A program made the translations under genes and the position numbers. This document shows, piece after piece, positions 595-53,427 of a DNA stretch of 64,000 nucleotides. The notes beneath the pieces are model-generated. The model was given only the letters and a program-made list of their open reading frames with translations. It was not told the origin of the DNA and searched no databases. Within the stretch, counting starts at the first letter, position 1. Each line of letters opens with the position of its first letter. The stretch lies in NCBI GenBank assembly GCA_017940465.1, contig JAGAYN010000017.1, positions 57,503-121,502 on the forward strand, given 5' to 3'. Source of the DNA: Bacteroidales bacterium (GTDB taxonomy: Bacteria; Bacteroidota; Bacteroidia; Bacteroidales; P3).

Positions 595-626
595 CCCATT
601 CGCAACCAGATTAAAGCATCCACTAC

Positions 627-1826: not shown

Positions 1827-2275
1827 CACGCGAAGAACAGCGCAAACAAGTCATCTGCTCCTGCATAGCCATGCAGGAGCAGATTGCTAATGTCGCCAGG
1901 CAGGAAATGGAATCGGCCCAGCAACAGAGCAACGACTACGGCGCCAACGTGGACCGCTACGACTCCTACCGCACCAAGATGATGCGCAGCCGCGACATGT
2001 ACGCCCGCCAGCTCAGCAACGCACAGGCCGGCATCCGCGTGCTGCAGGACCTGCTGCGCCTGCCGCCGTTCGACAGCGTCGAGCACGGCGCCTGCGTCGT
2101 CACCGACCACCAGCGCTTCCTCCTCGCCATCGGCGCCGGCAAGTTCCAGTTGGGCCCCCACGTCTGGTTCGCCATCTCCGCCCAGACACCCATCTACATC
2201 GCCCTCAAGGGCAAGCGCATAGGCGACAGCCTCGTCTTCAACGGCCAGAGCCAGACAATCAAAGAGATATTTTAG
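1823..2275 (+). CDS. GreA/GreB-like protein (3-oxoacyl-ACP-synthase-linked Gre-like family or elongation-factor homologue)
   Basis: Protein of 150 residues with a Gre-like layout: an N-terminal helical, Gln-rich coiled-coil region (about 1-75) and a C-terminal FKBP-like barrel. The end matches the Gre C-terminal pattern: 'TPIYIALKGKRIGDSL' followed by 'SQTIKEIF', comparable to 'SPlgkALlGkkvGDev...I'. Gre factors bind the RNA polymerase secondary channel and promote transcript cleavage. The acidic tip residues of a true GreA are not obvious here, so it may be a Gre-like RNAP-binding protein. Start overlaps the aminotransferase stop (ATGA). It converges on the leftward gene that ends at 2272; the stop codons overlap. 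Confidence 0.65.
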   Translation: MTREEQRKQVICSCIAMQEQIANVARQEMESAQQQSNDYGANVDRYDSYRTKMMRSRDMYARQLSNAQAGIRVLQDLLRLPPFDSVEHGACVVTDHQRFLLAIGAGKFQLGPHVWFAISAQTPIYIALKGKRIGDSLVFNGQSQTIKEIF

Positions 2276-3711: not shown

Positions 3712-3728
3712 GAGATACTTAGTGTTTT

Positions 3729-6034: not shown

Positions 6035-6316
6035 TGCTTGGTATCATTTATAAATATAAAAAACCGCGAGTATCTCTTGTTGGCACTCGAGGTTCTGGAC
6101 TACCTATAACCCAAACAAAAAAGCCCGCGATTTCTCTGCGAGCGTTCCGCTTCAATGTTGGGTTATAGCGAATACGAAATTGTCCAGATTCCGAGTGCTA
6201 TTTTGAAAGCAAAAACGCTTTTTATTCCTTGTTATTTATCCTGTTTTCTTTTTTATTCTTTTGGTTTTCAATCCGTTGTTTTATCATCGACCTAATGGGT
6301 CGCTACTGCAAATATA
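6035..6316 (-). promoter_or_regulatory. Long structured leader of the glycosyltransferase operon, possible attenuator or small RNA
   Basis: A -7 box TATATTTG reads leftward at 6309-6316. Downstream on the minus strand two T-tract hairpins appear. One is at 6117-6143 (stem GCTCGC/GCGGGC, then six T). The other is at 6058-6092 (CC-CGAGT/ACTCG-GG with one mismatch, then six T). Two long-range inverted repeats embrace the first: 6083-6100 with 6182-6198, and 6104-6113 with 6159-6168. Arm 6083-6100 overlaps the stem of the second hairpin, so alternative folds compete. This is what an attenuator or riboswitch expression platform looks like; a stand-alone ncRNA is also possible. No known riboswitch class is recognised. 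Confidence 0.45.
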
Positions 6317-6334
6317 CAATTTTTTTCTGCGGGG

Positions 6335-6520
6335 ATGAAACATTTTTCTGTGGGGTGCGTTATATAAGGGTGGTGGGCCGCTGTCTGGGCCGCCGGATTT
6401 CCCCGCTGAAGTTAAAGAACAGTTAAGGAACAGTTAAAGAACAGCCTTAGGAATTGCCTGTGGGATGCCTGGTGGGTACCTGTTGGATTCCTGTTGGTTG
6501 TCAGCGGGTTGCGATGGTGG
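6335..6520. repeat. Dispersed intergenic repeat, copy A (three 11-nt units)
   Basis: Contains 'GCGTTATATAA' (about 6357-6367), then three tandem 11-nt units GTTAAAGAACA / GTTAAGGAACA / GTTAAAGAACA (6411-6443), then a degenerate run of short 'GGAATNCCTG/GGGTACCTG' units. The same order recurs near 43.0, 44.9, 53.3 and 56.2 kb. Here it lies between the 3' end of the AddB-like gene and the promoter of the glycosyltransferase operon. No gene is seen in 6317-6537. Confidence 0.7.
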
Positions 6521-6537
6521 GTGCCGGGGGATGGGGA

Positions 6538-21956: not shown

Positions 21957-23201
21957 TTATTGCAAACCGAGCTTCTTGAGGCGTGAAGTTATGCCATGTC
22001 GACTGCGGCCGAAAATGGTCATTAACTCAGGAATTGTGGTACTGTTTTTGTAAAGGTCGGCAAGACGCTGGTCGTCTTCTTTGTGCCAAGGGGCACCGTG
22101 ATTGGGATATGTGTCCCTTAATGATTTGGACTTGGGGTATAGTTTGGTAATGGTCTCCAATAGGTTGTTGGAGCGAACAATACCTTTATTTAGTGTCTCG
22201 ATTGTAAGTTCTTTTGTTAACGGTGCCAGCAGAAGGACGTCTGGGTCGTTGGGGAGCCCACCGATGCCGAGGAGAAGGTATACTGTGGTTCCGTTCTTGG
22301 TGGAATATTGTATGAAAGAGGCTAAACGGTCAGCAGACAGGAGCTCCTTCTCCATGTCTTTGGGCATATGGCTGCGCCACTTGCACTCGATGGCAAAGGT
22401 GTGATCTTTGTATTCAAACACAAGATCCGGGGCGCTGTTGTTTTCGGGATATACACCTGGCAAATTCTTGTCGCCGCGCCACTCTTTGAGGGTCAAGTCG
22501 TTATTGTTTGGAATGTCAAGCAGGCTTACAATGTAGTCTTCAAACTCTCGGCCTTTGAGCAGCTCGTCGCTCATGGTGAGCGATTTGATGCGGTCATAAA
22601 TGGTGCTGTAGGGGCGGTCGATGGCCTTGTGGATGGCGTGGATGCCCATGTCCTCGTAGAACATGCGCAGCAGACGCTTGTCCTCGGCCACCGTCCAGCG
22701 GTAGGGCTTCTCCGGTTGCTCGGCGGCCATACGGAGGTCTTCCTTTTGCAGCAGCCACGTCACATTGTTCAATCCAGCCAGCAGGCCGAAAATGCTGCCG
22801 TTGGGGTTGATATATCCGCAGACGATGTGCTGCACCTGGCTGATGACATATTGGTTGCGAAGACGTGCGGGGAAGCCCTTGCCGTCGCTCTCCTCGGGTT
22901 GCATCACAAGGATGAGTAGGCGGTTCTCCTTTAGCGCCCGCTCAATCTGCACGTTGTAGGTATCGTTGAATTTGCCGAGCACCACCAGCGTGGTCGGCAC
23001 GTTGCACACCAGCAACGCCTTCAGCACCTCCTCCTCGAACTCCGACGTGTTGAAGCACACCGCGCATCCCCACTTGTCAAACTCCTCCACCCACCGGAAC
23101 ACCTTCTCATAGCACCCAATCGGCGCCCTCTTCGACGTGAGAAACAGCGTCTTCTCCCGCCTCCACAATTCCCTGTTCCCGATAGCCTGTTTGATGCGCA
23201 T
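21957..23201 (-). CDS. SLOG (DprA-like) - SANT/HTH - PD-(D/E)XK - HTH fusion, candidate defence nuclease
   Basis: Protein of 414 residues with four parts. Residues about 15-152 look like a DprA-type SLOG Rossmann domain: 'KTLFLTSKRAPIGCYEK', 'VPTTLVVLGKFND', then 'GKGFPARLRNQYVISQ' (the FPxRN motif of DprA). Residues 166-208 are a Myb/SANT-like helix-turn-helix ('RWTVAEDKRLLRMFYED'). Residues 215-330 are a restriction-nuclease fold with P258-D259 and E272-x-K274 in 'APDLVFEYKDHTFAIECKWR'. Residues 370-414 are a second SANT-like helix-turn-helix. The combination suggests ligand sensing coupled to DNA cleavage. Starts a leftward trio-like block with the DUF262 gene upstream (51 nt). Function is inference. 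Confidence 0.65.
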   Translation of the reverse strand: MRIKQAIGNRELWRREKTLFLTSKRAPIGCYEKVFRWVEEFDKWGCAVCFNTSEFEEEVLKALLVCNVPTTLVVLGKFNDTYNVQIERALKENRLLILVMQPEESDGKGFPARLRNQYVISQVQHIVCGYINPNGSIFGLLAGLNNVTWLLQKEDLRMAAEQPEKPYRWTVAEDKRLLRMFYEDMGIHAIHKAIDRPYSTIYDRIKSLTMSDELLKGREFEDYIVSLLDIPNNNDLTLKEWRGDKNLPGVYPENNSAPDLVFEYKDHTFAIECKWRSHMPKDMEKELLSADRLASFIQYSTKNGTTVYLLLGIGGLPNDPDVLLLAPLTKELTIETLNKGIVRSNNLLETITKLYPKSKSLRDTYPNHGAPWHKEDDQRLADLYKNSTTIPELMTIFGRSRHGITSRLKKLGLQ

Positions 23202-27732: not shown

Positions 27733-27905
27733 TGCAAAACGGCCTTGCGATGATGCGAGGCCGTTTTGCATTGGTGTAAATGCCTTTTGCAACGATGCGA
27801 GGCCATTTTGCAGCCGTGCAACGCCCCGTGCAATGATGCGAGACCATTTTACACGACTGCAAGAGGGTTTTGCGATGATGCGAGGCGAAATTGCACGGAA
27901 ACGGC
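27733..27905. repeat. Tandem 42-nt repeat, four degenerate copies, with a strong hairpin at the left end
   Basis: The anchor GATGCGAG recurs at 27752, 27794, 27835 and 27877 (spacing 42, 41, 42), each within 'TTGCNATGATGCGAGGCCNTTTTGCA'-like units, shown here only as short anchors. The first unit forms a 12-bp inverted repeat, TGCAAAACGGCC (27733-27744) with GGCCGTTTTGCA (27759-27770). Not a CRISPR: there are no unique spacers of constant length. The rest of the gap 27688-27978 has nothing recognisable. Confidence 0.7.
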
Positions 27906-27978
27906 AAATTTCCGCCGCACCGTGGGCAATAAAATCAACGGGGCGGCGTTTGTTTCAGTGATTAAATTTTAATGGTTT

Positions 27979-28980
27979 ATGAAAGCACCACTTTCAAATT
28001 CTTTTTTGAAGACGTTACTCGTCATAGTCTTGATTTCCTTTTTCGGATTGGACTCAATGGCGCAGTCGGAGTCCGACACGGATTCCGTTGTGATTGTGCG
28101 TTTGTTATACCTTCATCATCTTAAGGATAATATCGGTAATGTTTGGCAGGGATTCAATGGGAAACAGGCAGACCTGCCGCTGATATACTATGGGAATGAG
28201 TATTGCTATGTGATGAACCCTCAAATGAAATTTCTGACCAGCTTTGAAAGTTCACTTGTTTTCAAGAATGAGGGAGTAGCTATTTATAAAACCAAAAAGA
28301 TTGATGATACTCCATTTCACATGCACATGACCTACGAATTCGAAGAGGAAAAGCAGTTTGATTTCCGTTCGCCGTATATGCGATGCAGCAGCCTGGAGAC
28401 AACAGCCAAGACAATTCCTGACGTTACCACCGTAGATGTATGGGCAACGATGGTCCTTCATGAGTATTTTCATGCTTTTCAATTCTCTCATCCGGAGTAT
28501 GCTGATTATTATGAGAAGCATTGTGCTTTTTTCGATGCTCATACACTGCAATCACTTTATCTTAATCATAAATGGTATAGGAATAGTGTAAACAAGGAGA
28601 ATGAACTCCTACTAAAAGCCCTGAATACTTCGGATGTTAATCTTGCCCGAAAGTATCTTCGTTCGTTCTTAAAGACACGCAACAATCGCCGCAAAAAAGC
28701 ATACAGAAAGTTGCATTTAGACATCACGAAGGCAGAACAGACCTATGAAATGACCGAAGGGTCTGCACGCTATATCGAGGCAAAACTATACGAGAGTATT
28801 CCCGTGTATCAAGCAGATAGCAGTTGGCTCTATACGGTAGGCAAAAACTACTATTATGCCACAGGATATAATATGATTAGGGTGTTGGATAAGTTTGGCT
28901 GTCATTATCAGAAAGAGCTATTCACTCATATTCCTTTGGCAGAAGAAGAACTCAATGATATTGTCTATAATTTACGTTAG
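27979..28980 (+). CDS. Secreted HExxH metallopeptidase-like protein
   Basis: Protein of 333 residues. Signal peptide 'TLLVIVLISFFGLDSMAQ'. A zinc-binding HExxH motif is at 161-165 ('MVLHEYFHAFQF') and a downstream Glu in 'MTEGSARYIEAKLYES' (E260 or E267) is placed like the third ligand of gluzincins. The region between is helical and basic ('KTRNNRRKKAYRKL'). Family not named with confidence. AT-rich gene standing alone between the DUF6261 operon and the nifJ remnant, with a terminator after it. Confidence 0.6.
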   Translation: MKAPLSNSFLKTLLVIVLISFFGLDSMAQSESDTDSVVIVRLLYLHHLKDNIGNVWQGFNGKQADLPLIYYGNEYCYVMNPQMKFLTSFESSLVFKNEGVAIYKTKKIDDTPFHMHMTYEFEEEKQFDFRSPYMRCSSLETTAKTIPDVTTVDVWATMVLHEYFHAFQFSHPEYADYYEKHCAFFDAHTLQSLYLNHKWYRNSVNKENELLLKALNTSDVNLARKYLRSFLKTRNNRRKKAYRKLHLDITKAEQTYEMTEGSARYIEAKLYESIPVYQADSSWLYTVGKNYYYATGYNMIRVLDKFGCHYQKELFTHIPLAEEELNDIVYNLR

Positions 28981-29000
28981 TCTTTCAGGATAAACACCGC

Positions 29001-29042
29001 AAAAAAGAAAAGCGAGACCCGAGGGCCTCGCTTTTCTGCTTT
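29001..29042. terminator. Bidirectional terminator
   Basis: Perfect 11-bp inverted repeat AGAAAAGCGAG (29006-29016) / CTCGCTTTTCT (29027-29037). A run of six A on the left gives six T for leftward transcripts; T-rich sequence follows on the right. It ends both the HExxH gene and the leftward nifJ 3' remnant, and is probably the original nifJ terminator. Confidence 0.75.
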
Positions 29043-29061
29043 TTGGTGTGTCGCTTTCGGA

Positions 29062-30492
29062 TTACATTTCCGAAAGCTTTTTGTAGCCCTCGTAGCGCAG
29101 CTTGGCGTTGCGCTCGGTGGCGACGAAGAGTTCCTCGGCCTCTTGGGGGAAGGTCTTCATCAGCGAGTTGTAGCGGACCTCGCCCATAATGAAGTCGCGG
29201 AACTTGCTCCAGTCGGGTTCCTTCGAGTCGAGGTGGAAGCCATTCTGACCGGCGTCCTCTTCGGCGGGGTTGAAGTGCCAGAGGTGCCAGTAGCCGCACT
29301 CGACGGCCAGCTTCTCCTCGTTCTGCGTGCGGCCCATGCCGATTTTGATGCCGTGGTTGATGCAGGGCGCGTAGCAGATGATGAGCGACGGGCCGTGGTA
29401 GGCCTCGGCCTCCTTGATGACCTTGAAGTACTGCGCCTGGCTGGCTCCCATGGCGACCTGCGCCACATAGACGTAGCCGTAGCTCTTGGCAATCATACCG
29501 AGGTCTTTCTTGCGTATCTTCTTGCCGCTGGTGGCGAATTTGGCGACAGCACCTGCGGGGGTAGCCTTGGAACTCTGTCCGCCGGTGTTGGAGTACACCT
29601 CGGTATCGACAACGACGACGTTCACATCCTCGCCGCTGGCCAGCACGTGGTCCAGACCGCCGAATCCGATGTCGTAGCCCCAGCCGTCGCCGCCGAAGAT
29701 CCACTGGCTGCGCTTGGCCAGGTGGTCCTTGTTGGCGAGCAGCTCGCTTTCGAGCTCACAGCCGTGGCACGGGCAGATGGGGCTGCCGGCGGCCTTGGCT
29801 GCCTTGGCCTCCTCAAGTTTCTGGGCTGCCACCTCGGCGCCGTAGAGTTCTTTGCCCTTGCCCTGCCAGAACTCAATGGCTCCATCGATGGGCAGGATGG
29901 CTTTCTCCAGGGCGGCAATGAACTCGTCGGTAGCCTTGCGGTTGGCGAGGGTGTCGTCGAAGGTGTCGAGCCACTTCTGGGTAGCCTCGCGCATCCAGTC
30001 ATAGACGGTGGTGTTCACCAGTTCCTCGGCCTTGCGCTTCAGGCTCTCGCGCATCTGGCGTGTGGCGGTGGCCATGCCGAGGCCGAATTCGGCGTTGTCC
30101 TCGAAGAGCGAGTTGGCCCAGGCGGGGCCGCGGCCGCTGCGGTAGTTGCGGCAGTAGGGCGTGGCGGGGGCCGAGCCGCCGTAGATGCTGGAGCATCCCG
30201 TTGCGTTGGCCACCATCATCTGCTCGCCGAAGAGCTGGGTGATGCACTTGAGGTAGGGCGTCTCGCCGCAGCCGGCGCAGGCGCCGCTGAACTCGAACAG
30301 CGGCTGTGCGAACTGGCTGTTCTTCACGCTGGCGGTCTTGTCGATGAGGTTGTCCTTGTAGGTGACGCGCTTCTGGGCGTAGTCCCAGTTGGCGGCCTCG
30401 CCGAGCTGGCTCTCGAAGGGTTTCATCACGAGGGCCTTCTCCTTGGCGGGGAACAAAAGGCGGTCTTTAGGTTTTGCTCCCCTTTTACTCAT
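29062..30492 (-). pseudogene. 3' remnant of pyruvate:ferredoxin oxidoreductase (nifJ)
   Basis: Open frame whose last 463 codons align without gaps to the end of the intact nifJ (29062-30451 versus 35353-36742, both 1390 nt). It keeps the thiamine-diphosphate domain ('GACAGCGETPYLK', 'GDGWGYDIGFGGLDHV', 'DTEVYSNTGGQSSK') but lacks the pyruvate-binding, CoA and 2[4Fe-4S] domains. Homology stops abruptly at 30451 inside 'CPAKEKAL'; upstream the frame runs into the unrelated 'MSKRGAKPKDRLLF'. A stretch of about 38 residues (around 29775-29890) differs strongly from the intact copy, so this is a different allele, not a fresh duplicate. It could still be translated as a beta-subunit-like fragment. 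The spacer 30493-30565 shows nothing. Confidence 0.85.
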
Positions 30493-30565
30493 CTTTTGAT
30501 GAAATACTGCGGTGTTCCTATGTACTAACGTCGATGTGATCATGTTCTTTCGGTGATGTCGGCTA

Positions 30566-32218
30566 TTACATTGCCATTATCTTATCCAATTTTGTATCTG
30601 TAAAAGTTTCCCATATCGCCAGGCGGATGGGTTTGTAGTCTGGGAATAGTTGCTTGACAAATTCAATCTCGAACACCAGTCGCAGGTCGTTTGGGTCAGC
30701 CTCTGGGTGTACTTCGTGTTTTGAACCCACACGTGCAACTTTGATGTAGTAGAGGTCACGGATGCCCTTGCTCTTGCGGTAGGGCATAAAATAATAGAGG
30801 TGGTTGAGTTCGACGGTCGATGGAAATTTCTTGCCTGTGTAATAGATATTTATTGAACCGTCAAGTAATAATTCTATTGTATCGTTCTTTACCAACGAAA
30901 CAAGCAGGTTTTTCGACGCATCGAGGCCATCGGCATTTATCGTATCCTTGTTCTCGATAATCTCTTCAGGGAACTCTTTGGCTATCTCCAAGAAATTGAC
31001 TGGCTCGATGCTGCTCTGTACGGAGTATTTTTTCAGTGTCGCCTTGTCACCAAACATATACTTGGCAAATATCTTCACCGTTTCTACATTCACCGAATTG
31101 CCGAACTGCTTGTATGCCTGTGCTTCTATCACATCAGGCTGGAACGTGTCAGGGAAACTTTGCAATCGCGCACACTCACGGAGCGTAAGGAAACGCTTGC
31201 GGCTTCCAACAATACTTGTCTGTGTGATGGCCACCAATGCAGGAAAATAGGTACCGGGTTTCACACGGATGCCCGACGGACGGAACTGCAATATATTATC
31301 CCACAAACTAGGCTTCTTGCATTGTCCCGCTTGCCATTCCAATTTTGCCTTTGCACCAAAGAACAACGGATGCTTCTTCGCACGGGGCAACCATTCATCG
31401 AGGAATGCTTTGTTCTCAAGATAAAGTTGATTGTTTTTGAGGATAAAATTGATTTTCCATTTTGGATAGTCTGTCATATCCTCTGTTGGGTCAAGAGGTT
31501 TCAGATATTCGCTCCAGACAGGAAAACCAGGCAATTTGTTGCCTTTAATATTCTGCACAAACTCATCCCACAGATTAAGCAACTCTATCTTGTCTTTAGT
31601 AAGATGGTAGCGGTCAATATCAGCAATATCGTTATCATCTTGCATAATGTCGTCAATGCGGCATTTGGGCAGTTTTTCTGTATCAAAAAGGAATTCGGGC
31701 AGTTCTCCAATGTCCTTGCGGATACACATAATGTAGACTCGCTCACGGTGCTGAGGGATACCAATGTAATGCGGACTGAAAATGACAGGCTCACACAGCA
31801 CATTGTAGCCAATAGTAACAAGATGTTGGTGTATCACGTGCCAAGTGTTACCCTCGTCATGAGATGCGAGATTACGCACATTCTCCAACAAGGCGTATTT
31901 GGGGCGTGTCTGCTGCATGATACGCTCCACATCAAAAAAGAGCGTCCCTTTGGTTTCATCTTGAAAGCCTAATCGTTTGCCCGCCTTTGAAAATGCTTGA
32001 CACGGGAAACCAGCACACAAAACATCATACTCTGGGATTTTGTTTGCATCAACTTTGGTAATATCTCGGTCAGGACGTAATCCGTAGTTTGCTTCATATG
32101 TCTTTCGGCAGTCTTCGTCAATATCACAAGCATATACGCATTGTCCTCCAAGTTGCGACATGGCCTGATGGAAACCACCAATGCCACAGAAAAGGTCTAT
32201 GAACTTGAACTTCTTCAT
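30566..32218 (-). CDS. DNA cytosine-5 methyltransferase of a type II-like RM system
   Basis: Protein of 550 residues. C5-MTase motifs are in order: I 'FIDLFCGIGGFHQAM' (6-20), IV 'AGFPCQAFSKAGKRLGF' with catalytic Cys73, VI 'ENVRNL' (112-117), VIII 'IPQHRERVY' (about 154-162), IX 'RECARLQSFPDTF' and X 'YKQFGNSVNV'. After motif X a further about 170 residues form an extra domain ('YYFMPYRKSKGIRDLYYIKV') not needed for methylation, perhaps for DNA binding or coupling. Starts directly after the stop of the candidate endonuclease gene (32219), so the operon reads ATPase, endonuclease, methyltransferase leftward. Much AT-richer than the flanking nifJ copies. Confidence 0.93.
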   Translation of the reverse strand: MKKFKFIDLFCGIGGFHQAMSQLGGQCVYACDIDEDCRKTYEANYGLRPDRDITKVDANKIPEYDVLCAGFPCQAFSKAGKRLGFQDETKGTLFFDVERIMQQTRPKYALLENVRNLASHDEGNTWHVIHQHLVTIGYNVLCEPVIFSPHYIGIPQHRERVYIMCIRKDIGELPEFLFDTEKLPKCRIDDIMQDDNDIADIDRYHLTKDKIELLNLWDEFVQNIKGNKLPGFPVWSEYLKPLDPTEDMTDYPKWKINFILKNNQLYLENKAFLDEWLPRAKKHPLFFGAKAKLEWQAGQCKKPSLWDNILQFRPSGIRVKPGTYFPALVAITQTSIVGSRKRFLTLRECARLQSFPDTFQPDVIEAQAYKQFGNSVNVETVKIFAKYMFGDKATLKKYSVQSSIEPVNFLEIAKEFPEEIIENKDTINADGLDASKNLLVSLVKNDTIELLLDGSINIYYTGKKFPSTVELNHLYYFMPYRKSKGIRDLYYIKVARVGSKHEVHPEADPNDLRLVFEIEFVKQLFPDYKPIRLAIWETFTDTKLDKIMAM

Positions 32219-33424
32219 TTAGCGTTGGTAGTTATAGCGGAACACAACAAAGCGGTCAATATCTTTCTTCTTTATCATGAATTTGGGATTACGGGCCGAA
32301 CCATCTGGCTGGTGTCCTTGGTTAAATTCAGATAGAGCCTCACGGAAATTGATGCGGTTTAGTTCCAGAATAGTCATCTTCATAAACTTGACACCTGTTT
32401 TAAGACGTTTGGCATAAGACAACTCGTCTTTCTTCATGTATCTGTTGTAAGCACGAACCTCTTTATAGTCGGTTGCTTCAGAGTCTTTCTTGGTTTCATG
32501 CTCATATATGACATACCAAAACTTTCCAAACATATTGATGCACTCAATAAATGCCGTTTGGTCGTTGCCGGGTGCCTCTGTTGCAGTGATGTCGCTTGCC
32601 TTCAAGTCACCATAGAACTGCGCTTTCTTAAACCAAATATCAAAATCAAAAGCACCAGCCTGTTTCCCCTTGTTTGATTGGCCTGTGTAAATGATGTGGG
32701 GCGATGTGCTGTTGTCTATGGTGAACCGATTAAACTTATATTCAAGATACCAGCCTGGCCATTCGGTTTGCCTCCATTCAGGCCAATTAGCCTTTTCCAT
32801 TTCTTTGATTGTAGGTAAAACTTTAAGCCATTGGCCAAACGTGAAGCCCTGATTAAACTGCTCAAACAAAGAAAACAATATGCTTTGGCCTATTTCCTTA
32901 CCACAAAGGTAACTTGCAAACTTATTGCCCCGAATGGCGTAGATATGATTGCCATACATATCCTCCTTATGGAAAACGCCATTGGTTAGGGCTTGGAACA
33001 AATCATTGATGTATATGTGAGCCGAAGAGTTATGGACTATCTTTTTGAGATAGGTGTCTTTGAGGAAGTCCACAAATACGATTACTCCTTTGTAATGGTA
33101 TACTCCAATAAAACGCACATCGTATGGCAGTTTGTTTTTCTTTATGTCTTTACAAAACTCCTTGTACCAATGTGGCAACTGGACTCGCTTTTTGAACGTT
33201 GGATGGGGATTGCCCAAATAAGATACAGCACGATGTAAAAGGATATATTTATTTTGATTATTAGTGTATATGAATACTCGATGTCCTAAAATATCTTGTA
33301 CCGCGCAATGCTCCTCTCCCAAGAAACGCATCAGGGCTTCTTGTTGCTGTTTTGGAGTTAATACTTGGTCTTGGGCTATTTCAAGACTAAGGTCTGGCCT
33401 TATTTGTTCACTATTCTGATTCAT
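32219..33424 (-). CDS. Candidate type II restriction endonuclease
   Basis: Protein of 401 residues, not assigned to a named family. A possible PD-(D/E)XK core lies in 'AFDFDIWFKKAQFYGDLKAS' (Asp, then D-L-K after about ten residues), preceded by 'WYLEYKFNRF', and followed by aromatic strands ('FWYVIYEHETKK'). Position is the main argument: its stop abuts the methyltransferase start, and the GHKL gene lies 1 nt upstream of its start. The expected role is cleavage at the site the methyltransferase protects. Confidence 0.6.
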   Translation of the reverse strand: MNQNSEQIRPDLSLEIAQDQVLTPKQQQEALMRFLGEEHCAVQDILGHRVFIYTNNQNKYILLHRAVSYLGNPHPTFKKRVQLPHWYKEFCKDIKKNKLPYDVRFIGVYHYKGVIVFVDFLKDTYLKKIVHNSSAHIYINDLFQALTNGVFHKEDMYGNHIYAIRGNKFASYLCGKEIGQSILFSLFEQFNQGFTFGQWLKVLPTIKEMEKANWPEWRQTEWPGWYLEYKFNRFTIDNSTSPHIIYTGQSNKGKQAGAFDFDIWFKKAQFYGDLKASDITATEAPGNDQTAFIECINMFGKFWYVIYEHETKKDSEATDYKEVRAYNRYMKKDELSYAKRLKTGVKFMKMTILELNRINFREALSEFNQGHQPDGSARNPKFMIKKKDIDRFVVFRYNYQR

Positions 33425-33425
33425 G

Positions 33426-35288
33426 CTACGACTGTTGTTGCTGTTTGAAATGACTTTGAAGAACTTTCAAAAACGCCTCGTTTCTAGAATTAGCATCTTC
33501 AACGAGAGCCTTGAAATCCATTATATACGCATTCTGTATTACACTTTTCGTTTGGGTTTTATCAAGGAATATTGGTTCGGATCTAAAATATACGTTCCCA
33601 CTAGAGAACAAGGGTCTGAAATGACTATCTACCAAGTGAGTTTCATAATCATCATTAAACTCTACAATGCCATAAAACCACATTCTTTGTATTTTGTCAT
33701 CATAATATTCGGCAAGTCTCCTTGTACGTGTGTTTAACTGAAACTCAACAATGGAGTTTTCCTCCGCACTTATTCCAAGGCGTTTTAGTTCAACGACTAC
33801 AACATCAATTTTCTCTGTGCTTGTTTCGGGATTAGAGGAGAAAAAAAGTGTTATATCAGGTCTATCTCTATCAATCGTAGAATTATCTTCTCCGGTAATG
33901 CAATTAATCACTTTGGTCATTTCTGCCTCACTCAATAACTCCTGATAACTCATAAATTTGTCATCAATTACCCAAACATTATTTTGGTAAATGTCTTGAA
34001 TAAATGTGTTCTTTTTTAAATCAGAGTAGCGAGGTACCAATAAATTGTGAAGTTCAGACTCTTTATTTTTTCCATCAAGGCTACGCATTCGATTAATGAT
34101 GTATTGTCTAAACAGCACATATTCTGTCAATGAACGAGCGGACAAATCTAGCGTTTTATTGAATTGTTCATCTGTAAGAGTATCTGCACACAATATTTCT
34201 TTTTGAGCTTTAAAGAATTGTTCTTGTGCTTTTTTTAGAATATCATTCTGTGAGATATATCCAATGCTACCTGTTTCAAATAAACCCTGTAAATGAGGGT
34301 ATCTTTTATTCAATTGGGATATTCTTTCCTGATTTATTTCTACAATTTTTGGAACTTTCTCGTTTACAACATCCGCTATGGCCGTTCTGAATGTATTTTT
34401 TAAAGAGTTAATATCTATACTTTCTTCCAAAATATTTTGTCTTGAACCGTCCATCATATCTCCAACTATTGACTCCGACACCAGCAAGAAAACCATATCA
34501 TAACCTGTAGGCATTTCTTCTGTTATCACATCTAGTTTGACGGTTCTATCATCAACAGAGATTCCTGTAACTACTCGACTATCACGATTATCAACCTCAT
34601 TGATATAGTAGTACATTTTCAATTTAGAAAATGCGTTAACAGGATAATCAATGGATTTTTCTAGGAAATTTGGTATTTCTGTTGTGGTTATTGTTTCAGT
34701 ATGAGTAACACCAGATACTATAGTTGAGATATTAACAGTAATATCCTTGTTGTTTATCTTTGATTCTTTATAAAAGCGAGGATAAAAATATTCAAGAATG
34801 GCTTTTTTCAAATATGATGGATTAATATAGTCTGTCTTATGAATTTTTTCCCCGGAAAACCCACTCATTTTAAGTATAGTTCCATCATTGATGTTTTGAA
34901 CAGGTACTACTTTGCCATCATCTTTTCCATTGAATGATTCAGAAAAAGTAAAAGTCCTTTTTTTTGATTGGTCAAAGATACTTTCGACTTGTATTGTATC
35001 AAAATAACATAGGTATACTAATCTCCCTAACCCCTTGTGAGTGCTTTCTTCAACATTAAATAATTTACAAAATTTATCATATCGTATATCATCAAAGCCA
35101 ACGCCATTGTCTTTTATCTGGAGAGATAAATTTTCAATTGATTTCCCCTTTTTTGCTTCATACGAAATAATGATATTTATTTCTGTTGCATTCGCATCTA
35201 ATGCGTTTGCGATAGCCTCAAAGTAAACCATCTCAAAAGAAGATTTTGAGAAGAACATTTTGACGGCTTTTTTAACATCTACTTCCAT
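33426..35288 (-). CDS. GHKL (MORC/Hsp90-like) ATPase with C-terminal PD-(D/E)XK-like motif, RM-associated
   Basis: Protein of 620 residues from the ATG at 35288. An in-frame ATG at 35330 lies inside a perfect 14-bp hairpin and is disfavoured. The N-terminal Bergerat fold has N box 'YFEAIANALDANATEI', G1 'IKDNGVGFDDI' and G2 'STHKGLGRLVYLCYF'. In the last quarter 'RPDITLFFSSNPE' is followed by 'IDVVVVELKRLGI', a PD...ExK arrangement typical of restriction nucleases. GHKL ATPases linked to RM genes are known relatives of eukaryotic MORC proteins. It may supply ATP-gated DNA loading for the restriction step. Confidence 0.75.
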   Translation of the reverse strand: MEVDVKKAVKMFFSKSSFEMVYFEAIANALDANATEINIIISYEAKKGKSIENLSLQIKDNGVGFDDIRYDKFCKLFNVEESTHKGLGRLVYLCYFDTIQVESIFDQSKKRTFTFSESFNGKDDGKVVPVQNINDGTILKMSGFSGEKIHKTDYINPSYLKKAILEYFYPRFYKESKINNKDITVNISTIVSGVTHTETITTTEIPNFLEKSIDYPVNAFSKLKMYYYINEVDNRDSRVVTGISVDDRTVKLDVITEEMPTGYDMVFLLVSESIVGDMMDGSRQNILEESIDINSLKNTFRTAIADVVNEKVPKIVEINQERISQLNKRYPHLQGLFETGSIGYISQNDILKKAQEQFFKAQKEILCADTLTDEQFNKTLDLSARSLTEYVLFRQYIINRMRSLDGKNKESELHNLLVPRYSDLKKNTFIQDIYQNNVWVIDDKFMSYQELLSEAEMTKVINCITGEDNSTIDRDRPDITLFFSSNPETSTEKIDVVVVELKRLGISAEENSIVEFQLNTRTRRLAEYYDDKIQRMWFYGIVEFNDDYETHLVDSHFRPLFSSGNVYFRSEPIFLDKTQTKSVIQNAYIMDFKALVEDANSRNEAFLKVLQSHFKQQQQS

Positions 35289-35303
35289 ATCAATAACATT
35301 TTG

Positions 35304-35335
35304 AAGTTGTGGAGGCCTCTCGGCCTCCACAACTT
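35304..35335 (-). terminator. Perfect hairpin between nifJ and the RM operon
   Basis: Inverted repeat of 14 bp, AAGTTGTGGAGGCC (35304-35317) with GGCCTCCACAACTT (35322-35335), loop TCTC. It lies 17 nt past the nifJ stop and just upstream of the ATPase start. Followed leftward by only a weak T/A stretch, so read-through into the RM operon is possible. Confidence 0.55.
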
Positions 35336-35352
35336 GGGTTAGAGCGGATGGT

Positions 35353-39033
<3,681 letters not shown>

Positions 39034-39043
39034 AATTGCTTAA

Positions 39044-39063
39044 ACGTTTAAGGATTAATTATT
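39044..39063. repeat. Shared nifJ leader, 20 bp identical to 41923-41942
   Basis: ACGTTTAAGGATTAATTATT (plus strand) precedes both the intact nifJ and the nifJ 5' remnant at the same distance from the start codon. Outside it the upstream sequences diverge completely, so it marks one boundary of the duplicated segment. Confidence 0.8.
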
Positions 39064-39077
39064 TGGGTAAATTGTTT

Positions 39078-40142
39078 CTATAAATCGTCAATTGCTCGTT
39101 TGTCATTAGAAATAGATGTTGCACCATCGATATAATGTAACGACACGTAAAATCTATGCTGATAGTCCACATTGATGTGGCTAATGATAACTGTTATTAT
39201 TCCGCCTGTAACATAGAAATGTGTTTCATACTTATATTTGTCCTGCTTTAGCAATGACATGATTTTGAACTCTGATTTAGGCTGTTTTGATGCATCGAAC
39301 CCCTCTTCACACACAATGGGCTCTCCGTATTTCTCCTTCAGCATATCTTTTATTTTGGTGTAATTGTTGAACAAATACTCCCATTTAGTTTGGTCAGGGA
39401 AAGAAATGTATACTGCCCTCACAGCATCTTCATATTCCGCAGAGCCAACATATATTGTGCAATTTGTATAACCAGCAAAAGACCCAGTGAAAACGTGATA
39501 GCCTTGCATTTCGGTTATGAACTTGTACCCCTGCTTTTCGAGATTCCACGCAAACTCTTTGACGGGACCACCAAGCGAGATGCCTTTAAATTTGATATGA
39601 GGCATATTGGTTGTAACGTAACCAATCGTCAGATACGACACTATTACAGCATTCTCTCCGCTTTTCAAATGAGTAATACTCATTGCCACTCCACCAACAT
39701 CTGGTGTAAACCAATAACATTGATACTGACATTTGCCGTCATTGACAGCCTCATACTTCTGGGCAGCAGTCTGTGGTTCTGTACGTATGTCGAACGATTC
39801 CTCATCTTTTGTAGGTTCTCCAAATTCATTTCGGAGTTTATTCTTCATGCTGATATATTTTGCATACAAGAATGCCCAACTGTCATCGGGGAATAGGATA
39901 ACGTTTACACCTTTCAGCGCACCATTTTCCTCAATGTGCTGCAGAATACAAGGCTCACCATAGAACATACCACCCAATGCCGAGTCCGCGTCATCCGGCA
40001 CATAATTAAACCCTTTCTGCAAAAGTTCTCTTGAGAAACCAACCTTGCTCCCTTTTATCGGAACCCCAAGGAACGTCAATTCTTGGCAGTAGGAATTGGC
40101 CGTAAGCAATAATACAAATGCAAATAGTACTGTTCTCTTCAT
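39078..40142 (-). CDS. Secreted protein with two internal repeats, unknown function
   Basis: Protein of 354 residues. Signal peptide 'VLFAFVLLLTANSYCQ'. The mature chain seems to be two related halves: 'LTFLGVPIKGSKVGFSRELL' with 'GFNYVPDD' in the first, and 'IKFKGISLGGPVKEFAWNLE' with 'GYKFITEM' in the second, each followed by a 'YGEP/EFGEPT' segment and a Phe/Tyr-rich strand region. No family recognised. AT-rich, leftward, 2 nt downstream of a DUF3820-like gene and 44 nt upstream of nifJ, so nifJ may be read from the same transcript. Confidence 0.65.
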   Translation of the reverse strand: MKRTVLFAFVLLLTANSYCQELTFLGVPIKGSKVGFSRELLQKGFNYVPDDADSALGGMFYGEPCILQHIEENGALKGVNVILFPDDSWAFLYAKYISMKNKLRNEFGEPTKDEESFDIRTEPQTAAQKYEAVNDGKCQYQCYWFTPDVGGVAMSITHLKSGENAVIVSYLTIGYVTTNMPHIKFKGISLGGPVKEFAWNLEKQGYKFITEMQGYHVFTGSFAGYTNCTIYVGSAEYEDAVRAVYISFPDQTKWEYLFNNYTKIKDMLKEKYGEPIVCEEGFDASKQPKSEFKIMSLLKQDKYKYETHFYVTGGIITVIISHINVDYQHRFYVSLHYIDGATSISNDKRAIDDL

Positions 40143-40144
40143 AT

Positions 40145-40669
40145 CTATAATTGTAGTTTGTAATCTTTTACATTGTTGACTACCCAGTCAATATACGACT
40201 TATCTGTTTCTATTACTTCTCGCAGGACCCTTCCTTTGTATTTGCCGAAAGGCATTGCATCGTCTAGTTGTATGATTTTCATTGTCGGATGGGAGTCTCC
40301 AGTCTGACGATATGTGCTGTGGCATAAGTCCTTTGCATCTTGATATTTCTCCACCTCTTCTTTAGGCATTCCCGGGATATCTATTAAACACCATTCGCCG
40401 CAACCAGCACAAGGTATTGTTTCCCTTCCATTAAAATATTCTTTCTGCATTTCCTCATTTCTTTCCCCATTATAGAGCAAATATCCCCAGGCATATCCAT
40501 ATTTCCCTTTGGAGAAGACTCGCGTAACCATATAGGTTACACCTTCTTGACTATATCTATATTCAACATTATTAGAACCTTTGAGACCCCATGGAGAACG
40601 CTTTACCTGGAACGGTACTCGTTTACCAATTTCATAGTAGATGTTGAATATGTTATCTCTTGGATACAT
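40145..40669 (-). CDS. DUF3820-like protein (ExoX C-terminal-type motif)
   Basis: Protein of 174 residues. The C-terminus 'MPFGKYKGRVLREVIETDKS' then 'YIDWVVNN' matches the 'fGKykG..l.eI...dp.Yl.Wl' motif of DUF3820 and of exodeoxyribonuclease X C-termini. A central 'CAGCGEWCLID' gives three closely spaced cysteines that could bind zinc. The N-terminal part is unassigned. Co-directional with its neighbours (2-nt gap to the downstream gene, 20 nt from the upstream BRO gene). Confidence 0.5.
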   Translation of the reverse strand: MYPRDNIFNIYYEIGKRVPFQVKRSPWGLKGSNNVEYRYSQEGVTYMVTRVFSKGKYGYAWGYLLYNGERNEEMQKEYFNGRETIPCAGCGEWCLIDIPGMPKEEVEKYQDAKDLCHSTYRQTGDSHPTMKIIQLDDAMPFGKYKGRVLREVIETDKSYIDWVVNNVKDYKLQL

Positions 40670-40689
40670 TGTGTTTTTTCAGCATTTTA

Positions 40690-41682
40690 CTATTCCCTAC
40701 TTCTTTCTTCGCGGCTATTTAGCTCTATTTGTCTCGCTTCTTCCATGGTGGTATCAAGGGCTAACTTGTCTTGGGCGTTGAGGGGGCTGACGACGGGTTG
40801 GCCGGTGCGTTGCTCTATCTCGCGGCGGGCGGAGCCTGCTACATTGCCGCCCTCAATGGCAATGTTTCTGCTTTCAGAGAAGGTCTCGGGCTGACGGCTG
40901 CGGGAGATGGCGGTGGTTTTTGTTCTCCGCTTCGCTATCGAAAGCTCCACTGGAACTTTCTTCACTTCGGCTAACATATTTAGCACTAACTCAAGATTGG
41001 TCATATTGTCACGCAGGTTCTCTTTTTTCAATCCTTTCACCTCTTTGTAATCACGCACCGAAAGGCCGCTCCACGCACGGGTCATCTCATTGGTCAGTAT
41101 GGCATAGTCGCGTTCCTGGTCGATGCCGCGTGCTTTGACTTCGTCTTCCTCCTTCCAGTTCGGCAAAACTCGAACCAGTTCGGTTTTGCACTCACCTTGC
41201 AGTCGGTCCAACTCGTCAGTCAACTCCTTGCGCATCTCGATGGATTGCAGCCGCTGGTTAATCCACCCTTCACTGTAGCCTTTGGCACGGTAGAAGTCGG
41301 CACCACGCACGATAGCACGTTCCGGGTCGGCGATTTCGTCCAGACGCTCCGCACCCACCTGTGTCAACCATTGCTTGAAAGGCTCAGCCTCGGGCGAGGG
41401 AATGGACTGTATGATACGCAGAAGTTGTTTTGTATCAGCCACATCAGTCAGTCGCATCTTGCCATCAGGGGTCCGCATTTTCAACTGGTTACAATTTGTA
41501 ACCGTTTCATTTCCCTCCTTTGACATCCTGTGTTTTAGCACCTTCCAGTAGTTACGCGCCAACTGGTAGCCGTTATCTGTCAGCACCGCCACCACGTCTA
41601 CCACCGAGAAGTACCACTCCTCTTGCTCCGCGTCCCAGTGTGTACGCACCCTCTTGTCTTGGAATATCTGAACCTTCTCCAT
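40690..41682 (-). CDS. BRO-N domain protein (phage antirepressor-like)
   Basis: Protein of 330 residues from the ATG at 41682; upstream in-frame sequence belongs to the nifJ remnant. The N-terminal BRO-N domain shows 'VRTHWDAEQEEWYFSVVDVV' and 'LTDNGYQLARNYWKVLKHRM', then 'LTDVADTKQLLRIIQSIPSP' with 'FKQWLTQVG'. BRO-N DNA-binding domains occur in phage antirepressors and chromosomal homologues widespread in Bacteroidales. The C-terminal half is helical and charged ('MEEARQIELNSREERSRE'). It is the first gene inside the proposed nifJ-splitting island. Confidence 0.75.
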   Translation of the reverse strand: MEKVQIFQDKRVRTHWDAEQEEWYFSVVDVVAVLTDNGYQLARNYWKVLKHRMSKEGNETVTNCNQLKMRTPDGKMRLTDVADTKQLLRIIQSIPSPEAEPFKQWLTQVGAERLDEIADPERAIVRGADFYRAKGYSEGWINQRLQSIEMRKELTDELDRLQGECKTELVRVLPNWKEEDEVKARGIDQERDYAILTNEMTRAWSGLSVRDYKEVKGLKKENLRDNMTNLELVLNMLAEVKKVPVELSIAKRRTKTTAISRSRQPETFSESRNIAIEGGNVAGSARREIEQRTGQPVVSPLNAQDKLALDTTMEEARQIELNSREERSRE

Positions 41683-41713
41683 ATTATTTGTCGTTATAAA
41701 GCAAAAAGGCAAA

Positions 41714-41913
41714 TCAAGACATGTACTCCGCCATCGGGCTGCTCGGGGTGATGGGGTGGATGGCCGCAACCTCGCTGTGGTATGCCGTTGGCTCAGCCGA
41801 CAACATATAGGTTACGTGGGCCGCTGAACAGTTGTTCCCTGCAATGATATTAATCCTATGGTGTTTGCCAGCACACCAACCGTTGCATGTCATGATTTTT
41901 TTTCTTTTGCCAT
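41714..41913 (-). pseudogene. 5' remnant of nifJ
   Basis: On the minus strand ATGGCAAAAGAAAAAAAATC aligns with the nifJ start, then loses one base and continues in frame from 41893: 'NNCSAAHVTYML', then 'SEVAAIHPITPSSPMAEYM', matching nifJ 'GNCAAAHVAYMF' and 'SEVAAIYPITPSSPMAEYI'. Two extra segments (after 'MTCNG' and after 'MLSAE') break the alignment, and a TGA follows at 41714. The homology ends at about 41720, 40 codons into the gene. It is preceded by the same 20-bp leader as the intact gene. Not functional. Confidence 0.85.
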
Positions 41914-41933
41914 TTTCTTTGAACGTTTAAGGA

Positions 41934-42725
41934 TTAATTATTGTGATTTATCATCTCTTTCATTTCGTCAATTGTGTAGGGGGGAGTCTTTCTGTGCAGC
42001 ATCGCGTGGCAATTCGGGCATACGGGGACCAGGTCTTTCTGGAAATCAATCTGATAGGCCTTTCCGATAGCCGAGAGCGGTATCATGTGGTGGATGTGTA
42101 TGAAACCATGACCTGCTGCACCGTATTTTTTCCCAAAATCCATGCCGCAGACGAAACATGTGCATCCCTTCAGTGCAATGCATTTCTTTCTCGCCTCGGC
42201 GCTCCTCTCATAACGGTTGACATATACCCGGCTTGCATGTCCTTCCCACAGGTCCTTTTCGTCAACCTCGTTTGGGAAGATGCCGTCCATGTTGCCTCTG
42301 TAGGGATTAAGGCCGAGAATGTTCAGGACCCAGTCCCATTTCGTATAACCGGTAGCCTCCCTGTTCTTTCTTTCCACAAACGCCTGCTTCTCGCTGCTGT
42401 CCATCCCGGCGTATTCGGGGCATGCGAACTGGAAGCCTTCAGACGGCAGTGCGGACGACATTGGGGTGCACAGTCCATTGAGTGTCGGTATCGGTTCGTG
42501 GGTGGCTTTCTCCACTTCGGTCAGGACTCGCACCACGTATTCCAGCTGCTTCCCTATGCCCGAGTATTGCCGGTGGCCGAACAATTCATATGTCAGATCG
42601 CCGTATGTATGGGTGGTCTCGCCATGCTGGGCCCAGTAGACAAGTATTGGTATTATTTTCCGGATATGTTGTCTCGACTTTTCGCCGTTACATACGTTGT
42701 CAATGATTTTGCTGTAGTTCTCCAT
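41934..42725 (-). CDS. HNH endonuclease
   Basis: Protein of 263 residues. The C-terminal HNH domain has a zinc pair 'CTCFVCGMDFG', the core 'HIHHMIPLS' and 'DLVPVCPNCHAMLHR', i.e. His-His...Asn...His with the second CxxC, as in McrA-type nucleases. The N-terminal 150 residues ('ILVYWAQHGETTHTYGDLTY') are unassigned and may bind DNA. Its last codons and stop (41934) lie inside the 20-bp leader of the nifJ remnant, so it was the upstream neighbour of the resident nifJ. A good promoter lies at 42867-42897. Restriction or mobile-element role possible. Confidence 0.85.
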   Translation of the reverse strand: MENYSKIIDNVCNGEKSRQHIRKIIPILVYWAQHGETTHTYGDLTYELFGHRQYSGIGKQLEYVVRVLTEVEKATHEPIPTLNGLCTPMSSALPSEGFQFACPEYAGMDSSEKQAFVERKNREATGYTKWDWVLNILGLNPYRGNMDGIFPNEVDEKDLWEGHASRVYVNRYERSAEARKKCIALKGCTCFVCGMDFGKKYGAAGHGFIHIHHMIPLSAIGKAYQIDFQKDLVPVCPNCHAMLHRKTPPYTIDEMKEMINHNN

Positions 42726-42859: not shown

Positions 42860-43190
42860 GAGGGTACAAATATAATAATATTTGCCGAGATGGCAAAAAA
42901 TATTTTGCCGATTTCTTGCCGCGGTGAAACAAAATCGGGATTTTTGCGTTATGTAATGTGGGGTATGCGGGGCGGTCGTTCGCTCCGTTTTGCAATCCAT
43001 TGAGTTTCAGTCTGGTGCCGGATGGCGGGTTAAAGAACAGTTAAGGAACAGTTAAAGAACAGTTAAAGAACAGCCGTGGATGATACCTAGGGAATACCTG
43101 GGGATGCCTGCCGGGTGGTTGGCGGGTGCCTGCGGGATGCGAGGGGGATGGCTAGTGGATGCGGCGCAGGAGCGGCGAGTGGGCGGGTCC
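42860..43190. repeat. Dispersed intergenic repeat, copy B (four 11-nt units)
   Basis: From about 42860 to 43080 nearly identical to copy C (44745-44925) and, from 42910, similar to copy D (53178 onward). Order: promoter (leftward), 'GTGAAACAAAATCGG', 'TTTTTGCGTTATGTAATG', 'GATGGCGG', then four 11-nt units GTTAA(A/G)GAACA at 43029-43072, then short 'GGAATACCTG' units, then at 43152-43187 the last 11 codons of a YiiX-like gene ('AHSPLLRRIH' stop, leftward), as in copy D. The rest of the 43191-43437 gap shows a leftward start-less frame ending at 43331 ('LYEVPESREAIERLIGE'), perhaps a gene scrap. Confidence 0.75.
42867..42897 (-). promoter_or_regulatory. Promoter of the HNH gene (-33/-7)
   Basis: Read leftward: TTTG (42894-42897), 19-nt spacer, TATATTTG (42867-42874). 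Perfect Bacteroidota consensus. The leader to the HNH start (42725) is about 135 nt. Confidence 0.6.
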
Positions 43191-43437
43191 AGACGTGTCT
43201 TTGTCCGCCAGGCTGCTCCGGCCGCTACAGATGATGTCGGTCATATCCATCGCGGAGAACGGCTATTGCCTGGTATCCGTATCCCGTGTTGCGCGCATTC
43301 GGGCGCTATACTGCCTGTTTTTGTGTCTCATTATTCTCCAATAAGGCGTTCTATTGCTTCCCTGCTCTCAGGTACTTCGTATAACACTTGTTTCAGAATT
43401 CCTTTATCGCATAAAAGTTTAAGGATTAATATGAAAT

Positions 43438-44591: not shown

Positions 44592-44744
44592 GTTCCCATT
44601 CCTTGATAATGACCTTCGCCTCCGGTGATTTGGTTCTTCTTCGGAGTACGGAACGGTTGTTTTTATGTCTAGACTTGCGGGTTTCATGCTTGATTAAATG
44701 GCTGTGGATTAATGTCTTGGCGTTTGTTTTTGTCTTGTTGTGTG

Positions 44745-45010
44745 GTACAAATATAATAATATTTGCCGAGGTGACAAAAAATATTTTGCCGATTTCTTGC
44801 CGCGGTGAAACAAAATCGGGGTTTTTGCGTTATATAATGTGGGGTGTTCGGGGCGATTTTTGCCCCGTTTTTCAATTCCTTGATTTTCAGTCTTGTGCCA
44901 GATGGAGGGTTAAAGAACAGCATAGGAGGATATATAGGGAATACCTAGGAAATACCTGTGGGAAGCCTGCTGGGTGGTTGCTGGGTGGTTGCTGGGTACT
45001 TGCAGGATGG
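44745..45010. repeat. Dispersed intergenic repeat, copy C (one 11-nt unit)
   Basis: Near-identical to copy B over about 170 nt, including the promoter, 'GTGAAACAAAATCGG', 'TTTTTGCGTTATATAATG' and 'GATGGAGG'. Only one GTTAAAGAACA unit remains (44909-44919), followed by 'GGAATACCTAGGAAATACCT' units and 'GCTGGGTGGTT' repeats. The gap continues to 45112 with nothing else seen. Confidence 0.75.
44748..44778 (-). promoter_or_regulatory. Promoter of the aspartic-protease-like lipoprotein gene
   Basis: Read leftward: TTTG (44775-44778), 19-nt spacer, TATATTTG (44748-44755). Identical to the HNH promoter apart from two spacer bases; the whole promoter is part of the repeated sequence. Confidence 0.6.
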
Positions 45011-53164: not shown

Positions 53165-53427
53165 TTTCCGGTTTTTGGTGAAACAAAATCGGTTTTTTTG
53201 CGTTATATAATGTAGTATATGCGGAGCGGTTTTTGCCCCGTTTCGCAATTCCCTGTGTTTCAGTCCAGTGCCCGATGGCGGGTTAAAGAACAGTTAAAGA
53301 ACAGTTAAGGAACAGTTAAAGAACAGCCTTAGAGGATACCTATGGAGTACCTGCGGGAGGCCTGCGGGGTGGTTGGCGGATGCGAGGGGGATGGTCAGTG
53401 GATGCGTTGCAGGAGCGGCGAGCGTGC
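53165..53427. repeat. Dispersed intergenic repeat, copy D (four 11-nt units)
   Basis: Same order as copy B: 'GTGAAACAAAATCGG', 'TTTTTGCGTTATATAATG', 'GATGGCGG', four GTTAA(A/G)GAACA units (53282-53325), 'GGATACCTATGGAGTACCTG' units, then the 3' end of the YiiX-like gene (from 53395). The gap 53013-53394 holds only this repeat and the methyltransferase promoter. Confidence 0.75.

Follow-up and report, generated by a model that had tools for sequence, protein, structure and literature searches.

Why does a single stretch of bacterial DNA hold one intact nifJ, the gene for pyruvate:ferredoxin oxidoreductase, together with detached pieces of both of its ends and unrelated genes in between? The stretch analysed here (the window, 64,000 nucleotides) sits on contig C11 of a Bacteroidales genome of 2.24 Mb in 56 contigs; below, this genome is G000, its relatives bear other G numbers, and fetched loci bear L numbers. 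The first-pass annotation explained the arrangement by one 11.3-kb island that split a resident nifJ and brought a complete copy along. Comparison with relatives points elsewhere. With a probability of roughly 0.65, we propose that, in a genus of ruminant-gut Bacteroidales, nifJ supplies the homology by which arrays of foreign gene cassettes are anchored and extended on both sides.

The intact gene (35353-39033, minus strand, 1226 codons), the presumed anchor, is confirmed by a match of 1838.6 bits to NCBIfam TIGR02176 (cut-off 911.35). Downstream of it lies a 3' remnant (29062-30451, minus strand), whose alignment with the last 463 codons of nifJ (764-1226) is colinear as first described, with 90.7% nucleotide identity over 29078-30451; homology stops at 30451. 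The likeness is uneven: the first ~300 nucleotides beside the junction with a restriction-modification (RM) module are 97-99% identical to the intact gene and the segment at nifJ nucleotides 2801-3000 only 75%, so that the remnant is no simple recent copy. The 5' remnant (about 41714-41915, minus strand) is real as well, but it extends past the 40 codons first described: the match falls into two blocks and reaches about codon 46, additional stretches of 24 and about 45 nucleotides are present, and the frame shifts near codon 7. G016 has remnants with similar extra stretches. The leader shared by the intact gene and the 5' remnant also stood, although it exceeds the 20 bp first noted, the repeat family D10 comprising 47 nucleotides of common leader. 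The leader pattern matches three times in the window, each time on the minus strand, and in none of 100 shuffles. Copy 1 (39017-39063), with the sequence TTAATCCTTAAACGTTTAAG and the 14-bp palindrome CTTAAACGTTTAAG, is the working leader and includes the nifJ start; copy 2 (41896-41942) begins a second rung; copy 3 (43388-43434), decayed and overlooked at first, begins a third. In total, the window contains three leader copies and two nifJ 3' ends.

Terminators help to order the two 3' ends. Outer-type terminators (TAATCCTGCATCGACACACTAAA... and variants) follow the outermost remnants and, in G048, the intact nifJ, whereas inner-type hairpins (CCCAAG...CTTC) stand after some inner remnants and after intact nifJ genes that have cargo downstream; there are also other types. 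Since the working nifJ of the window has an inner-type hairpin (35304-35335, minus strand), the type accompanying downstream cassettes, and the 3' remnant is followed by an outer-type one (29001-29042, no strand assigned), the remnant would most simply be an older 3' end pushed outward. The first-pass annotation had assigned the same role to the remnant and the 29.0-kb terminator, and the outer type indeed recurs after remnants in G047 and G112. A relative with an unoccupied 3' target is available in G048 (L115), which has one intact nifJ with an outer-type terminator, no second nifJ 3' end in the fetched 20 kb, and a weak extra leader upstream (15.2 bits).

Was all of this DNA acquired at once? 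Both remnants flank 30452-41713, as a single island carrying a whole nifJ would predict. However, the two halves of this region occur apart. The RM module is present in G047 with 89% nucleotide identity over 30391-35492 and the same junction to the nifJ remnant, while the G047 contig with the rest of nifJ has no tblastx match to the upstream genes of the window in the fetched 20 kb (~16.6 kb of it upstream of nifJ); the two G047 contigs end 36 nucleotides apart inside nifJ and likely adjoin. G002 has the secreted gene and a DUF3820-like gene upstream of nifJ and an efflux module, not RM genes, downstream. Its secreted gene runs directly into nifJ at about nucleotide 80, a fusion that may reflect a deletion or an assembly joint. 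In addition, the window has a further leader copy outside the supposed island. We therefore rejected the single island, for which we see hardly any chance. Because the RM module in G047 and the upstream pair in G002 are found separately, the window is best read as independent additions downstream and upstream of nifJ, the upstream side being at least two rungs deep, and the intact nifJ may be better viewed as a resident anchor, repeatedly overwritten, than as cargo. The HNH gene, previously taken for the old neighbour of nifJ, is unlikely to be ancestral there, as the third leader copy and an apparent Bro-N relic (43240-43330, approximate, minus strand; spotted by eye against cassette junctions and resembling the start of the Bro-N cassette gene) lie beyond it. 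The observation behind the first-pass annotation, nifJ in three pieces, is confirmed, and its interpretation is partly supported: foreign DNA does sit at nifJ.

A protein search for nifJ in 99 genomes (G000 and 98 relatives) found nifJ pieces in many genomes of the same genus. Counts of ladders refer to 54 of the 79 searched genus genomes, namely those with fetched locus DNA, window included, the other 25 standing outside the count; this DNA was scanned with profiles of the nifJ start and the nifJ end, and close-lying ends were merged as one copy. The gene stands within ladders of its own ends, with leader/start copies upstream and 3'-end copies downstream, each followed by different cargo. 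At least two separate leader copies are present in 17/54 genomes, at least two separate 3' ends in 10/54, and either in 23/54 (17, 12 and 24 before merging). On a single contig the corresponding numbers are 15, 7 and 20, G053 being excluded because its second end, 413 nucleotides on, is a repeat of local origin. Five leader copies were found in G016 and in G023 (one of the latter inverted), four each in G018 and G108, and three each in G007, G027, G039 and G100; one contig of G057 has three 3' ends, the middle one weak (15.4 bits). All copies share one strand in 14 of the 15 loci with more than one leader copy, and the 27 spacings between successive copies range from 191 to 6770 nucleotides, most being 1-4 kb. 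Hardly any genome outside the genus has the leader pattern, which occurs in 41/79 genus genomes versus 3/148 elsewhere in the order; a reversed control pattern gave 2/79 and 12/149 (read off the table). The 3' side is not wholly confined to the genus, since, in a scan of 80 loci looking beyond it, tblastn placed nifJ pieces more than 700 nucleotides from the main gene, all downstream, in 5 (L050, L051, L056, L066 and L095). The profile scan there added one weak 3'-end match, upstream, in L050, and a second leader match at one locus, L035, which is the genus member G113. As a side observation, in L050 and L051, from other lineages, the distance from the intact gene to the 3' pieces downstream is ~2.6-6.2 kb, and one of these pieces is inverted.

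Strain mixtures joined by the assembler via a conserved nifJ might mimic such ladders. Contigs end in or beside nifJ sequence in 38/54 genomes, and the internal gaps of nifJ in G055 and the cargo-nifJ fusion in G002 could be collapsed assembly. Yet the same rungs lie mid-contig in several separate assemblies, and the remnants are diverged and decayed, with recurrent insertions, which makes an artefact very improbable. An error private to G000 is also unlikely, because other assemblies have like ladders and G047 has the same RM/remnant junction.

If nifJ is an anchor for exchange, its own divergence between species is of interest. We compared fourfold degenerate sites of nifJ, PPDK and EF-G in 17 genomes, covering 133 of 136 pairs (three had too few sites; some nifJ genes are partial, with fewer sites compared there). 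PPDK was taken in place of rpoB, which was not found in G000. The median difference between species is 13.0% for nifJ, 43.3% for PPDK and 52.5% for EF-G, and nifJ lies below both other genes in 133/133 pairs; G047 and G048, for instance, differ by 4.9% in nifJ and by 51.8% in PPDK. In eight genomes nifJ is near-complete, and over their 28 pairs PPDK correlates with EF-G (Spearman 0.62), while nifJ correlates negatively with the two (-0.39 and -0.47). Codon bias was rejected as a cause of the low nifJ divergence: EF-G is highly expressed, and this control diverges even more than PPDK. The simplest reading would be interspecies recombination at nifJ, and the low divergence supports the earlier suggestion of homologous recombination within the gene as the likely route. 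The nifJ of the window itself looks mosaic. In 200-nucleotide windows, nucleotides 1-2600 are 92-98.5% like G012, but nucleotides 2601-3000 resemble ten other genes of the genus at only 50-72% and L033, L036 and L037 at 71-87%. Around codons 870-1000 the gene has an alternative block, ~45 residues longer than in most genus members, and the 3' remnant has another version of this block, closest to that of L033.

The low divergence may also account for part of a gap in completeness. By our counts by eye, nifJ is complete on one contig in 12/79 genus genomes (the copy of G024, only 82% identical, may come from a misbinned contig), and PPDK is full length in 60/79 (two with one stop codon). Partial duplicates of PPDK were absent from the 37 genus genomes searched at E 0.001; the search of the other 42, at E 1e-60, covered long matches only. 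Assembly may have failed where species differ so little, which would explain some of the gap. Contig ends in nifJ were not used as independent proof of hypervariability, because assemblies can be broken simply by co-resident species being so similar in a gene.

How might the ladders grow? On the anchor hypothesis, incoming DNA from a related cell would carry part of nifJ and the neighbouring cargo of the donor. It would recombine within the highly similar nifJ, and its other end would join inside the start or the end of the resident gene. The outcome would be one full hybrid nifJ with the cargo adjoining and the old 5' or 3' end of the resident pushed outward as a remnant; repeated rounds would build leader/start copies upstream and 3'-end copies downstream. 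Rungs with ready-made nifJ ends could then spread by ordinary double homologous recombination. The closest case that we found is in Vibrio, where, according to the accessible part of the report, orphan immunity-gene arrays and displaced Rhs tips of the type VI secretion system (T6SS) arise as the anchor recombines, a new module enters and the old end is displaced, with arrays formed by repeated rounds (PMC5361080). For these arrays, its authors put forward something close to homology-facilitated illegitimate recombination: the incoming DNA pairs at one end with homologous anchor sequence and is joined illegitimately at the other, which moves the old end outward (PMC5361080, same portion). The nifJ ladders would fit this mechanism if nifJ is the anchor. 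As far as that text goes, both systems have serial displaced ends of one anchor gene; unlike the Vibrio arrays, which are anchored at a toxin locus and carry its own effector and immunity cargo, those at nifJ are anchored at a housekeeping enzyme, grow at both ends and carry unrelated cargo.

Junctions between the nifJ start and cargo return in different species, and five types (A-E) were read by eye. Type A joins Bro-N in G007, G018, G023 and, twice, in G108; type D precedes a Fic gene in both G016 and G039; four genomes have type B, four have type C and three have type E. The same junctions stand beside different neighbours in different species, for Fic as for Bro-N, and the order of the cargo varies: after the Fic rung comes a second Bro-N family in G016, but an AAA protein in G039. 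The copied nifJ start in G049 doubles as the first codons of a Schlafen-domain gene. Cargo may be expressed from copied leaders.

Such recurrent junctions raise the alternative of an integron-like system, in which the palindrome-bearing leader/start unit (about -31 to +36) would be a site at which an enzyme from elsewhere inserts circular cassettes, and a further such site would lie close to the 3' end of nifJ. Integrons are likewise serial small cassettes with a repeated short unit. The leader palindrome and the spacings of the leader copies suit this proposal; so do junction types A to D, which end at +36 to +40 of nifJ (type E likewise by eye), and a 3' start that seven genomes share at model position 159. 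Against it, other remnants run to about +134, +138 or farther, 3' breakpoints differ between most genomes (one at codon 764-766 is common to the window and G047), and nifJ is homogenised across species, an outcome not expected from cassette insertion alone. No tyrosine integrase (Phage_integrase) was found near the arrays of 14 genomes, arrays that are partly cut by contig ends; serine recombinases and transposases lay outside the search. The matches in these genomes are on contigs other than those of nifJ, except for one 51 kb away in G030. For G000, this agrees with the first-pass annotation, which saw no integrase: its tyrosine integrases are on contigs C32 and C40. The nifJ arrays differ from integrons in having, in those 14 genomes, no adjacent tyrosine integrase and in that their repeated unit is the start of a working gene. 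An integrative element using a gene end as attachment site would likewise have a tyrosine integrase of its own, and none was found near the arrays of the 14 genomes. Junctions at nifJ fall at preferred but varying positions. Integration linked to a tRNA and a known RNA element were both rejected, the window having no tRNA genes and the interval 26-46 kb no Rfam match. On balance, we consider the integron-like system unlikely, and it is equally doubtful that a new kind of cassette system operates on both sides of nifJ, with the leader/start and 3'-end units as its genuine recombination sites. If so, a core metabolic gene would serve as a platform in the way that an integron uses attI, with cassettes bringing their own copy of the site; these cassettes would stay expressible from the nifJ leader and circulate through the whole genus in the ruminant gut.

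Several points weigh against the anchor hypothesis itself. Breakpoints are uneven: of 38 truncated leader copies, 28 stop between +30 and +46 of nifJ and the other 10 between +8 and +18 (some leader/start copies run beyond +46), and seven 3' remnants have a common starting point, which in six of them follows an identical sequence. This suits a preferred site, or a few founding cassettes; it keeps the site-specific alternative alive, although few founding cassettes could also yield the pattern. The calculated chance of five junction types falling within 4 nucleotides (0/200,000) assumes independent uniform breakpoints and was not relied on. Homologous recombination across the 30-60 bp of the leader alone would be inefficient. 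Shared cargo is also less telling than expected. Of 577 shared non-nifJ segments, which include flanking DNA outside the arrays, 84 are comparable (PPDK in both genomes), and only 43 of these exceed PPDK in identity, the median difference being 0.9 points; the expectation that cargo would generally be more alike than the core genome was not borne out. Recent transfer is thereby shown for some rungs and not in general, and older rungs would be expected to have diverged. On the other side, among the best segments listed, cargo is 93.7% identical against 78.0% for PPDK in G007/G100 and 92.3% against 79.9% in G015/G048, and 27905-29246 of the window, which includes the 3' end of the remnant, is 98.1% identical in G047, a pair with 77.8% in PPDK. 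Finally, as the genomes are drafts with frequent contig ends at nifJ, full arrays are rarely seen and array lengths are minima.

Small inserts within the remnants were considered as part of the mechanism and rejected. They look like dispersed palindromic elements, because matches also occur outside nifJ pieces: among 853,503 bases, one motif has 32 loose matches and another 14, several of them outside. Short hairpin-like repeats of this kind (TTCGATAGCGAAGCGGAGAAC; GGCCGCGAACACCGCTGAAAT) recur at particular places in nifJ remnants and also elsewhere (L113, L122, L128, L130 and L143).

The RM genes of the window are flanked by direct nifJ copies (29062-30451 and the 3' part of 35353-39033), and plain insertion of an RM module with a long target duplication, combined with an unrelated upstream insertion, could explain this. 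Nobusato reportedly described RM insertion with long target duplication in 2000. Such insertions are known for RM systems, with duplications of the order of 100 bp in Helicobacter pylori, in the section of the source open to us (PMC3874152). Going by that section, RM genes between two target copies are common to both; unlike those cases, the window has a duplication of ~1.39 kb, most of the nifJ cargo examined is non-RM, and one gene is hit repeatedly across the genus. The same end duplication accompanies non-RM cargo, on both sides of nifJ and in other species. As a general explanation plain RM insertion already fails, and we regard it as rather improbable overall.

Two further systems share features with the nifJ arrays. 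Minimal mobile elements of Neisseria place different whole-gene cassettes at one chromosomal position via homologous recombination (PMC3898611, in its accessible text). Judged by that text, different cassettes at one place are a common trait, and the low divergence of nifJ would fit homologous exchange, but the Neisseria cassettes lie between two conserved genes, whereas those at nifJ pile up in series and leave gene-end remnants. The core defence hotspots of Pseudomonas aeruginosa hold defence cargo beside core genes without an obvious mobile element, and transfer by homologous recombination has been suggested, according to the available sections (PMC10250203). Candidate defence cargo beside a core gene (RM, SoFic and PDC candidates, other cargo being unassigned) occurs at nifJ as well; gene-end ladders are not mentioned for the hotspots in those sections. 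In the open literature (subscription papers being mostly outside it), we found no description of nifJ as an insertion anchor or of two-sided gene-end ladders.

Cargo was annotated for 30 proteins of relatives in Pfam, 10 of them also in PADLOC, out of 891 listed open reading frames (ORFs). Pfam matches include Bro-N, ORF6N, KilA-N, RhuM, Fic, HNH, AAA, WG repeats, Schlafen, RmuC and both an MreB-like and a radical SAM protein; several of the 30 have no Pfam match. PADLOC labels (RM, SoFic, single-gene defence candidates) fall on several cargo proteins, which may be kept for defence. Downstream cargo in G055 is a two-component and AcrB efflux module. An efflux module of response regulator, histidine kinase, outer membrane protein and AcrB lies downstream of nifJ in L120, L116, L133, L137 and L178, and is 94.0-99.7% identical in pairs whose PPDK is 85.7-94.5% identical.

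In the window, the upstream cargo on the minus strand comprises a secreted-looking protein without Pfam match (39078-40142), a protein with an ExoX-like C-terminal domain by Pfam (40145-40669; earlier labelled DUF3820), both also upstream of nifJ in G002, a Bro-N protein (40690-41685; PADLOC candidate PDC-S13), whose ORF cluster occurs in the nifJ loci of 7 genomes, G000 included, and the HNH endonuclease gene (41934-42725; PF01844), probably cargo of an older upstream rung. Downstream, also on the minus strand, the RM module consists of a GHKL ATPase (33426-35330), a restriction enzyme (32219-33424; MTaX1; PADLOC REase_II PDLC03409) and a C5-cytosine DNA methyltransferase (30566-32218). The listed GTG start of the GHKL gene falls inside the nifJ terminator, and an ATG 14 codons in may be the true start. 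Beyond the outer terminator lies a flanking gene (27979-28980, plus strand) within the segment shared with G047. Farther out on the downstream side, a protein at 23253-24929 matches PADLOC HEC-06 (683.6 bits) and Orf5 models, and the ORF cluster of its 414-residue neighbour (21957-23201) is also found in fetched nifJ loci of five other genomes. A repeated intergenic family with tandem GTTAAAGAACA units occurs at about 6.4, 43, 45, 53 and 56 kb of the window (members include 42863-42998, 43018-43089, 44744-44879, 53177-53230 and 53271-53342).

For the biology of these ruminant-gut Bacteroidales, all of one genus, nifJ seems to be a docking point, with foreign genes piled on both sides, broken-off copies of its ends among them and one working copy in the middle. 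How integrase-free defence islands are built and moved has been named as future work, in the sections of that study open to us (PMC10250203). At nifJ the order of insertion can be read like rings, because the old gene ends are still in place. A practical consequence is that absence of nifJ from drafts of this group should not be taken as loss of the pathway, given how many fewer genomes have a complete nifJ than a full-length PPDK. If the anchor hypothesis is true, a housekeeping gene of fermentation would be traded between species together with its neighbours.

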